Source: Ramlibacter sp.
GTDB taxonomy: Bacteria > Pseudomonadota > Gammaproteobacteria > Burkholderiales > Burkholderiaceae_C
Assembly: GCA_014376765.1 (NCBI GenBank)
Contig: JACMQX010000101.1
Coordinates: 1-47,644, forward strand
Direction: 5' to 3'
DNA: 47,644 bases
Part shown: in pieces, positions 1,352 to 4,268 of the stretch
How positions within the stretch are numbered: position 1 is the stretch's first letter
Layout of the letters: every line of letters begins with the position of its first letter
The notes under the pieces: model-generated
The model's database searches: none
What the model saw: the letters and a program-made list of their open reading frames with translations, nothing else
What the model was told of the DNA's origin: nothing
Position numbers and translations under genes: made by a program

Positions 1352-1423
1352 TTCCTCCGGCATGCCCCGTCTGCGCAAGCAGGTATTGGTGACAAACCAC
1401 CCCCATCACTGTATATTTATCCA

Positions 1424-2686
1424 GTGGACCTCAACAGCAAACTCGCCATCCTCGCCGACGCGGCCAAGTACGACGCCTCTTGTGCTTCCAGCGGCGCCAA
1501 CTCCCGTGACTCTGTGGGCGGCAAGGGCATTGGCTCGAACGACGGCATGGGCATTTGCCACAGCTATGCGCCAGACGGGCGCTGCATCTCGCTGCTCAAA
1601 ATCCTGCTTACCAATTTTTGCCTGTATGACTGCCTGTACTGCGTCAACCGGGTGACCAGCAACGTGCCGCGTGCCCGCTTCACGGTGGACGAAGTGGTCA
1701 AGCTGACGCTCGACTTTTACCGCCGCAACTGCATTGAGGGTTTGTACCTGTCCAGCGGCATCATCCGCAACCCCGACTACACCATGGAGCAGGTGGTGGA
1801 AGTGGCCCGCGTGCTGCGCGAGGACCATGACTTTCGCGGCTACATCCATTTGAAGACGATCCCCGATGCATCGCCTGAACTTTTGGAGCGCGCCGGCCGG
1901 TATGCCGACCGCCTGTCCATCAACATCGAACTTCCCACCGACGATGGCCTCGCCGCGCTGGCGCCTGAAAAAGATGGCGCCGCCATCAAGCGCTCCATGG
2001 CGCGGCTGCGTGTGCATATTGACGACGCCCGCGGCCAGGCGCGTGACCACAGGCTCGCGCCCGCCTCGTCACTTCCCGGGGCCCCTGCTGCACGCACGCC
2101 ACCGCCGGCATTTGCCTCGGCCGGGCAAAGCACCCAGATGATCGTGGGGGCCGATGCGGCGAGCGATGCCACCATCCTGTCCACCAGCGCCAACCTGTAC
2201 GGGTCATACCGGCTCAAGCGGGTGTATTACTCGGCCTTCAGCCCGATTCCGGATGCATCGGCATCCCTGCCGCTCAAGGCGCCGCCTCTGGTGCGTGAGC
2301 ACCGGCTCTATCAGGCAGACTGGTTGATGCGTTTTTATGGCTTCTCAGCCACCGAGATCACGCCCGCCACCGGGAACGGCATGCTGTCACTGGAAATGGA
2401 CCCGAAGATGGCATGGGCCCTGTCGCACCCCGAAAGCTTTCCGGTTGACCTGGACCGCGCACCGCGTGAACTGCTTTTGCGCGTGCCCGGGCTTGGGGTG
2501 AAGGCTGTCGACAGGCTGCTGCTGGCCAGGCGTGTACGGCGATTGCGGACTGACGACCTCAAGAGCCTGCGAGTGTCGGCGCACAAAGTGCTTCCCTTTG
2601 TGGTGGTGGCAAGCCACCGGCCCTCTGCTGCTGCGGTGGTGGCCCCCCGCGCCGCGCCCATGGCGATGCAAGGCGCGCTTTTCTGA
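1424..2686 (+). CDS. putative DNA modification/repair radical SAM protein (TIGR03916 type)
   Basis: This 420-residue protein has a radical SAM cluster motif CX3CX2C at Cys66, Cys70 and Cys73 (FCLYDCLYCVNR), which binds the 4Fe-4S cluster that cleaves SAM. The family hallmark AILADAAKYDASCASSG is at the N-terminus. A helix-hairpin-helix-like region (RVPGLGVKAVDRLLLARR, around 347-365) suggests contact with DNA. The start is GTG at 1424. The region around residues 205-227 is rich in Ala and Pro and looks like an insertion. It is followed after one base by a TIGR03915 gene, the usual partner of this family. The family is predicted to act in DNA metabolism, but I know of no established reaction. 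Confidence 0.88.
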   Translation: MDLNSKLAILADAAKYDASCASSGANSRDSVGGKGIGSNDGMGICHSYAPDGRCISLLKILLTNFCLYDCLYCVNRVTSNVPRARFTVDEVVKLTLDFYRRNCIEGLYLSSGIIRNPDYTMEQVVEVARVLREDHDFRGYIHLKTIPDASPELLERAGRYADRLSINIELPTDDGLAALAPEKDGAAIKRSMARLRVHIDDARGQARDHRLAPASSLPGAPAARTPPPAFASAGQSTQMIVGADAASDATILSTSANLYGSYRLKRVYYSAFSPIPDASASLPLKAPPLVREHRLYQADWLMRFYGFSATEITPATGNGMLSLEMDPKMAWALSHPESFPVDLDRAPRELLLRVPGLGVKAVDRLLLARRVRRLRTDDLKSLRVSAHKVLPFVVVASHRPSAAAVVAPRAAPMAMQGALF

Positions 2687-2687
2687 C

Positions 2688-3422
2688 ATGCGGGTGCAAC
2701 TGGCCGGCGAAACCGACCTGAACGGGTTTCGCACCCACGCGCGGGCCTTGCTGGCCAGTGGCGTGGCGCCGCACGATGTGCATTGGTCTACCGCCGTGGT
2801 CGAGGCGGCAAAAGCAAACATTTCAGGAGATGCCCTGCAAGCCTCACCAGGCGCCGCTCACGGGTCGGGGCTTGGTGTCTCCCATGGCGACCTGTTTGCA
2901 GGCGAAGATGCCGTGCCCCAGCTCACCGGCGATGCAGCCATGGCACGGGTGCCGGCCTCGTTCCTGCAGCTTTGCCGCGAGGTCATCCTGCACCGTGAAC
3001 CGCAGCGCCTGGCCCTGCTTTACCGCCTGTTGTGGCGCCTGGTTCGCGAGCCTGCCCTGCGCCATGATCCGCTGGACGCCGACATGTTGCTGGCCCGCAG
3101 CATGGCCCAAACGGTGCGGCGCGACATGCACAAGATGAAGGCCTTCGTCCGCTTTCGTACTGTGCAGGCCGAACCTGGCCCCGCGGCTGTGCCAGAGGGC
3201 GCCCTGCGCGACCTCCATGTGGCCTGGTTTGAGCCCGACCATCACATCGTGCGGGCCGTGGCGCCGTGGTTTGCGCGCCGCTTCACGCAGATGCGCTGGG
3301 CCATCCTCACGCCGCAATGCTGTGTGGAATGGGACGGCGCGGCGCTCGCGTTTCGTCCCGGCGCAAAACGTGAGGACGCCCCGCCGGCGGATGCGGGCGA
3401 GCATTTGTGGCTCACCTACTAA
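2688..3422 (+). CDS. TIGR03915-type DNA metabolism protein, cut short by an in-frame stop
   Basis: The start ATG at 2688 lies one base after the radical SAM stop codon (TGACATG). The 244-residue product contains the family region ALLYRLLWRLVREPALRHDP, a DMHKMKAFVRFR segment and a WFEPDHHIVRAVAPWFARRF segment. Translation ends at TAA 3420-3422, just after LWLTY. The conserved end of this domain family (IFNPARL..MP.KYW..LPE) is encoded immediately downstream in the same frame, so the domain is truncated. The stop most likely replaces a tyrosine codon (TAC or TAT to TAA). The full-length ancestral gene would span 2688-4268 and encode a TIGR03915-UdgX fusion. Confidence 0.8.
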   Translation: MRVQLAGETDLNGFRTHARALLASGVAPHDVHWSTAVVEAAKANISGDALQASPGAAHGSGLGVSHGDLFAGEDAVPQLTGDAAMARVPASFLQLCREVILHREPQRLALLYRLLWRLVREPALRHDPLDADMLLARSMAQTVRRDMHKMKAFVRFRTVQAEPGPAAVPEGALRDLHVAWFEPDHHIVRAVAPWFARRFTQMRWAILTPQCCVEWDGAALAFRPGAKREDAPPADAGEHLWLTY

Positions 3423-4268
3423 CAGCACATCTTCAACCCGGCCCGGTTGAAGCTGGCAATGATGCAAAAGGAAATGCCGCGCAAATACTGGCACAACCTG
3501 CCCGAAGCAAGCCTCATTGCGCCGTTGGCCGCCCGGGCCATGCAGCGAAGCAGCATGATGATCGCGCAGCCCGCCACGACGCCGCTGCGCCGCATACCCG
3601 CCACCGCCACAGGCACCTTGGCCGCCACTGCCATGACGCCCACCGGGCCGCAAGCTGCACGCGGCGTCATCGGTTCACTGCTGGCACTCAAAGACGCCAC
3701 CATGCGCTGCCGCGAATGCCCGATCGGCGAGCATGCCACCCAGTCCGTGATGGGCCATGGGCCGCTCAAGGCCCGCCTGATGTTTGTGGGCGAGCAGCCC
3801 GGCGATCAGGAAGACCTGCGCGGCCAGCCTTTTACCGGGCCGGCCGGCCAGTTGCTGGACCGCGCGCTGGAAAAGCTCCAGCTGCCACGCGACGGGATTT
3901 ATGTGACGAACGCCGTCAAGCACTTCAAGTTCGAGCTGCGTGGCAAGCGCCGCATCCACAAGACGCCAACACAGCGCGAAGCGGCTGCCTGCCTGCACTG
4001 GCTGGATGAAGAAATCCGTCTGGTCCAGCCGGCCGCACTCGTAGCCCTGGGTGCCACAGCGGCGCGCGCATTGCTGGGTTACGCCGTCCCGGTCACGGCC
4101 GAGCGGGGCAAGTGGTTCAGGCGCGCTGACGGGCTCCAGGTGCTGGTCACACTCCATCCGTCAGCGTTGTTGCGCATGCCACCTGAAGAAAAGGAAGAAG
4201 CCTTCGACGATTTCGTCCGGGATCTGGGTCAGGCACGCGAGTTGTTGCGGGCAGGCACGAGCCTTTGA
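3423..4268 (+). pseudogene. udgX: UdgX-type uracil-DNA-binding part of the interrupted fusion gene
   Basis: The frame continues without a gap after the TAA at 3420-3422, reading QHIFNPARLK. A separate product could start at TTG 3447 or ATG 3459. Numbered from TTG 3447, the features are Cys88 and Cys91 (MRCRECPIG), motif GEQPGDQEDLRGQPF at 115-129, the UdgX-specific KRRIHKTP with His171, Cys182, and HPSALLR at 237-243. UdgX proteins belong to the uracil-DNA glycosylase superfamily and become covalently linked to uracil-DNA through the histidine of the KRRIH loop. All catalytic elements are intact, so the UdgX domain could still be made by re-initiation or readthrough. I label it a pseudogene part because no strong ribosome site is visible. 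Confidence 0.75.

Follow-up and report, generated by a model that had tools for sequence, protein, structure and literature searches.

An in-frame stop codon within the DUF4130–UdgX fusion gene of a radical SAM operon preceded by a LexA-type box

The operon, its box and its interrupted second gene

We have analysed a stretch of 47,644 nucleotides (the window) from the draft genome of a Ramlibacter sp. (GCA_014376765.1, contig JACMQX010000101.1), in which a gene joining a DUF4130 part to a UdgX part is the second gene of an operon, after a radical SAM gene that is open and, judged by its profile score, complete (Table 1). A radical SAM gene was also present in 73 of the 80 genome-contig loci fetched. 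The fusion gene runs in one frame from ATG 2688 to the TGA at 4266–4268 and is interrupted by an in-frame TAA at 3420–3422, its only internal stop, which stands at fusion residue 245 with LWLTY before it and QHIFNPARLK after it. The first-pass annotation had placed the TAA at these borders, within the conserved end of the TIGR03915 domain, and both the frame and the profile match confirm that placement; the 282 downstream codons that it counted are 281 sense codons and the stop codon.

Table 1. Features of the operon and of its interrupted fusion gene in the window
Feature	Coordinates	Strand	Detail
LexA-type box CTGTATATTTATCCAG	1409..1424	+	box ends on the first base of the radical SAM start codon
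Radical SAM gene (TIGR03916), frame open over its whole length	1424..2686	+	535.6 bits against a cut-off of 343.5
DUF4130/TIGR03915 part up to the premature TAA	2688..3422	+	ATG 2688 one base after the radical SAM TGA
In-frame premature TAA	3420..3422	+	residue 245; relatives Tyr 95/104, Phe 9/104
DUF4130 29-residue C-terminal tail, intact past the stop	3423..3509	+	TIGR03915 positions 215–243; 0/14 near-invariant columns departed
Nearest in-frame starts past the stop (TTG 3447; ATG 3459, 3462, 3474)	3447..3476	+	anti-Shine-Dalgarno duplex energies
UdgX domain with active-site motifs, to the TGA	3513..4268	+	TIGR03914, 272.5 bits; phmmer

The part upstream of the stop exceeds the TIGR03915 cut-off by itself (140.8 bits against 112.25), but it covers positions 4–213 of 243, and the tail of the domain lies past the stop, where the first 29 residues match positions 215–243 with 30.4 bits. 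Since the two halves match 4–213 and 215–243, the stop replaces a single residue, and since each flank has its homologues in single uninterrupted ORFs, the interruption is more than a chance juxtaposition. Downstream of the stop the cut-off of the UdgX profile TIGR03914 (189.95 bits) is also exceeded, and the motifs GEQPG, TNAVKHF, KRRIH and HPSALLR all follow in frame. According to excerpts of PMC10359453, the UdgX family is marked by motif A GEQPG, an R-loop KRRIH with a nucleophilic His, and a motif B of the form HPS(S/A)(L/V)(L/V)R, and the UdgX protein of Mycobacterium smegmatis removes uracil from DNA and then bonds covalently to the resulting site; the distribution of UDGX is treated in PMC10776899. 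In a phmmer comparison with UdgX structures the UdgX part gave an E value of about 3e-54, and judged by score and motifs it is a member of the UdgX family. The earlier calls that KRRIH and the other UdgX motifs are kept downstream, and with them the active site, agree with the translation and the phmmer match.

An AlphaFold2 model of the read-through protein, with the stop written as Tyr, was built from 63 rows and reached a mean pLDDT of 85.8 and a pTM of 0.57. Confidence by block was 96–97 at residues 201–230, 86 at residues 231–240 and 70–83 at residues 241–300, and further helices are predicted at 256–262, 265–270, 272–282 and 284–293. Since residue 245 falls within a predicted helix (236–248), the stop in this model cuts a helix and not the low-confidence linker at about 302–320. 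Among 50 of 315 rows of a Foldseek search against the PDB, the matches were UDG-superfamily enzymes and one DNA polymerase, with nothing recognisable as structural likeness to DUF4130; phmmer likewise gave no PDB relative for the DUF4130 part.

The box at the start of the operon was examined among 69 loci with a full and clean upstream stretch. CTGT-N8-ACAG with at most one mismatch lay upstream in all 11 betaproteobacterial loci, against 0.56 expected from shuffles, and a GTTC/GAAC-N7 box, which we take to be the alphaproteobacterial LexA box, in 46 of the 51 alphaproteobacterial loci, against 0.28 expected. As for the other seven loci, neither box was found in four gammaproteobacterial loci and one from Phycisphaerae, and the alphaproteobacterial type was present in one unclassified locus and one titled Arthrobacter. 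The latter (L065, titled Arthrobacter sp. TPD3018) has GAAC-N7-GAAC before the operon, as in alphaproteobacterial loci, despite its actinobacterial title, and the record may be mislabelled. Within the window the 16-mer of the box, CTGTATATTTATCCAG, with up to three mismatches was found at no other place, and CTGTATATNNATNCAG occurs once in the genome, at this box. In the window the loose half-site pattern by itself shows no enrichment (6 found against 7.54 expected); the support for the box comes from the relatives. A search of the window's own genome with up to two mismatches gave nine matches, spread over seven places, and a reversed control pattern gave two. Two of the other six places were inspected: at L217 the box stands ahead of an ORF's LexA DNA-binding domain, and at L221 it precedes an S24 peptidase domain beside a Y-family polymerase. 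The longest ORF at each of these two places begins upstream of the box, and we presume a later start. A gene for an SRAP (SOS response associated peptidase) protein lies at 744–1430 of L221, beside the S24 peptidase/Y-family polymerase pair. The operon thus has a conserved LexA-type box before its first gene, to which LexA would be expected to bind, and control by LexA is predicted.

The stop column among relatives

The position of the stop was followed through 149 loci sorted by tblastn, of which 125 gave one segment through both parts, 15 a DUF4130 segment without UdgX in the same segment, eight no usable DUF4130 segment and one (L003) no match. After removal of the window's own two loci and of identical-end copies, 104 distinct fused relatives were left, all with residues in one open frame at query columns 369, 424 and 490. 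At column 245 these carry Tyr in 95 (TAC in 84, TAT in 11) and Phe in nine, and a stop in none. The first-pass annotation had explained the TAA by a single substitution from a Tyr codon and had called for an alignment with relatives, whose predominant Tyr codons fit that explanation. A profile search of 299 genomes of the family, which matched TIGR03915 in 65 of them including the window's own, found a stop inside the match in the window's genome only. In a protein search of 399 genomes, at least 49 other genes among the matches listed had a single match spanning the site, none with a stop there; the sole TAA flagged among them, in genome G323, falls past the UdgX domain.

These comparisons bear directly on whether the TAA could be read through or recoded as part of normal expression, an idea suggested by the intact and in-frame sequence on both of its sides. 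Programmed readthrough would predict a stop conserved among relatives, and here it is absent from all 104. TAA, in general the least leaky stop codon, also terminates 27 of 172 long ORFs sampled in the window's genome (TGA 120, TAG 25; the 27 may include the premature TAA), and ARAGORN, applied to 30 of the 31 tRNA matches in this 92.78% complete genome, found a UAA-reading anticodon at none of the 30. Since TAA ends ordinary ORFs, no tRNA for UAA was found in that search and no relative has the stop, designed readthrough is unsupported; neither recoding of TAA nor programmed readthrough nor a suppressor tRNA for UAA finds support in these data, and we regard this explanation as extremely improbable. 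Of the three options that the first-pass annotation had left side by side (nonsense mutation, readthrough and sequencing error), readthrough is left with no support and with some evidence against it, and the recency of a mutation gains from the undecayed downstream sequence described below.

Split relatives and translation past the stop

Some relatives do carry DUF4130 and UdgX as separate genes, a circumstance that the first-pass annotation had named as evidence against its own reading. In five loci of a neighbouring Ramlibacter-like clade, L044 (Ramlibacter MAG BP03), L046 (Ramlibacter paludis), L113 (genome G097), L115 (G197) and L182 (G334), the DUF4130 frame stops a little beyond the end of the WLxxY helix and UdgX is read from a different frame downstream, its start overlapping the DUF4130 stop at all five junctions read (by ATGA in three and by eight bases in two). 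A sixth split, separate from this clade, is found in L045 (a Polaromonas MAG), where the tail is degraded. L185 (G271) keeps the fusion but lacks the tail, in L183 (G392) DUF4130 is followed by some other gene, and for L043 and L068 the stretch fetched gave UdgX with no DUF4130 match. Among the eight loci with a lost or degraded tail (L044, L045, L046, L113, L115, L182, L183 and L185), Tyr 245 is, by eye, kept in seven (not in L113) and Phe 249 in six (not in L044 or L183). The split genes suggest that the part of DUF4130 which evolution can dispense with is the tail after about residue 249. G334 holds two copies, one fused (L184) after an apparent radical SAM end and one split (L182) after an unrelated ORF, which suggests a paralogous locus in that genome.

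The window gene resembles these natural pairs in that its DUF4130 frame is closed at nearly the same position, ahead of UdgX. However, in the natural pairs UdgX lies in another frame, its start overlaps in the five junctions and the tail is lost or degraded, and the pattern in the window is the opposite, with the end of the helix cut and the tail intact. Separate genes thus do occur among relatives, as had been foreseen, but because their anatomy differs from that of the window gene they leave the nonsense reading standing.

The placement of the window gene in the trees bears on the same point. On the tree, the seven rows labelled as split (L183 included) need two changes, both forced by starred branches, and by this measure fission has occurred at least twice. 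The careful tree groups the window gene with Ramlibacter terrae L033 and L123 at a support of 83/83, which is not firm, and the gene is in none of the starred sets that comprise up to half of the rows; in the quick tree it is one of 11 rows in a clade (SH-aLRT 98), eight of which are split, tail-less or UdgX-only. A constraint grouping it with the split clade was not rejected (p-AU 0.466).

The latter result is in keeping with a second explanation, namely that the locus already works as a split pair, in which a truncated DUF4130 protein is made and UdgX is re-initiated at an internal start past the TAA. Separate genes in the neighbouring clade and in L045, and UdgX genes lacking a DUF4130 match in L043 and L068, speak for such an arrangement, and DUF4130 parts without their tail still exceed the TIGR03915 cut-off in three of the four tested (L044 139.6, L115 138.3 and, barely, L113 112.8 bits; L046, at 95.7 bits, is below it). 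The intact downstream part would also suit residual expression of UdgX, and the ATGs at 3459, 3462 and 3474 all precede the UdgX domain. Their anti-Shine-Dalgarno duplex energies are -3.4, -3.6 and -1.5, with -1.7 for TTG 3447, against -3.2 for ATG 2688 and a median of -2.4 (25th percentile -3.52) at random window sites. No strong ribosome site stands out among the four in-frame starts, and this energy discriminates poorly, two internal ATGs scoring like ATG 2688; as these two are as good as the start of the fusion gene by this measure, weak re-initiation may take place. However, in place of an overlapping start the window gene has a gap of 36 nt from the TAA to its first in-frame ATG, the initial 24 nt of which hold no in-frame start, and in place of a lost or degraded tail it has an intact one. 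A settled split would moreover leave 3423–3458 untranslated and free to decay, yet these codons are intact and still encode QHIFNPARLKLA. An old split with separate translation is excluded by these undecayed codons, and we consider a working split through re-initiation improbable.

A bolder idea is that the stop is the first step of a gene fission such as has been completed in the neighbouring clade, in which a nonsense codon near the domain border would come first, UdgX would be kept by weak re-initiation, and the loss of the tail and an overlapping start would follow later. This idea finds little support, and we hold it to be very doubtful.

Age and probable origin of the stop

At residues 246–274, just past the stop, 14 columns are at least 95% uniform across the relatives, and the window gene departs from them at none. 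Elsewhere it departs at one of 44 near-invariant columns upstream of the stop, where 51 of the 104 relatives depart as often or more, and at one of 53 in the UdgX part, where 31 of the 104 do. Because the sequence downstream of the stop is undecayed, the stop is, on this comparison with relatives at most 66% identical in the alignment, either very recent or an error of the consensus. A search of the genus turned up no genome except the window's own among the genomes searched, and none of the 317 plasmid records that matched has 80% of the query covered at a single place.

An error in the consensus of the draft assembly, or a mixture of strains, with the gene intact in the organism itself, is the main rival to a recent nonsense substitution. 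The assembly consists of 336 contigs with 2.46% contamination, a single wrong base would suffice, and an error would produce identical letters; it would also account for a stop that is seen in none of the relatives compared and has everything around it intact. As a measure of assembly quality, codon usage around stops was scanned over 278,339 bases of the window's genome, the window included (2,239 N), and, as a control, over 240,000 bases of the complete relative G099 (2,500 N). At a threshold that was lowered from 0.15 to 0.09 after the scores of the site had been seen (at 0.15 the window site is unflagged), nine stops were flagged in the window's genome, one of them the TAA at 3420–3422. 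On inspection, seven of the other eight were ordinary junctions with a start 1–9 codons on (one an alternative start), and one (L157) was a gene end followed by an 89-codon fragment; in the control all eight flagged stops had an ATG 2–15 codons on. The distance to the next ATG does not discriminate, being 12 codons at the window site and up to 15 at ordinary junctions of the control genome, and it is homology, and not distance alone, that sets the window site apart from ordinary junctions. Read in this way, the other flagged stops give no sign of many assembly errors, and the scan lends no support to an error-riddled assembly, showing no excess of broken genes; a lone error, however, leaves no pattern. 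We therefore regard a consensus error as a possibility to be taken seriously, although on balance an unlikely one.

The fragment at L157 (at about 6566, minus strand) is perhaps a gene remnant; the gene end before it is presumably methyltransferase-like, and the fragment itself presumably resembles part of a phosphoribosylamine-glycine ligase.

The explanation that we favour, and consider fairly probable, is that a Tyr codon of an otherwise intact DUF4130–UdgX fusion gene, in the radical SAM operon with its LexA-type box, has very recently been hit by a nonsense substitution. The codon would have become TAA by a single substitution, translation from ATG 2688 would halt at 3420, and the product would be a DUF4130 protein without its last 30 residues, cut within a predicted helix, with little or no output of UdgX. 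If translation does end at the stop, DUF4130 is truncated and UdgX is probably made poorly or not at all, and function would be lost. No second UdgX was found in the window's genome, where a family 4 glycosylase is the sole further match to the UdgX part. The operon is of a known damage-response kind, and by itself a stop that is either a young nonsense lesion or an artefact has little significance there; if real, it would provide a natural truncation of DUF4130, whose function is unknown and which is fused here to a DNA-crosslinking protein.

The lesion is ordinary in kind and lies within a known system, and it does not point to a new mechanism. The literature searched yielded no paper on TIGR03915, on UdgX together with a radical SAM gene, or on UdgX together with LexA, whereas DUF4130 and COG4277 each came up in one. 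The radical SAM gene belongs to what we take to be the COG4277 family. An operon of COG1573 and COG4277 is described, in an excerpt of PMC8565304, as SOS-regulated in Bacteroidetes, with Alphaproteobacteria and Verrucomicrobia also cited, and on the strength of that excerpt the control of the operon studied here is known in kind. Both are uracil-DNA glycosylase operons with LexA-type control, predicted in our case, but the excerpt concerns Bacteroidetes and the other groups cited, whereas the window comes from a betaproteobacterium-like genome and holds a broken fusion gene. With the UdgX protein of M. smegmatis (PDB 6AJO and 6AIL) the window's UdgX part shares GEQPG, KRRIH and HPS (E 2.7e-54; Foldseek TMt 0.88 with 6ajo_A); that protein stands alone, whereas the UdgX part in the window is the last part of a fusion and is preceded by a stop. 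Finally, the TIGR03915/DUF4130–UdgX fusions, found mostly in Alpha- and Betaproteobacteria, have the same domain order and UdgX motifs as the window gene, which differs from all 104 of those compared in its in-frame stop at residue 245.
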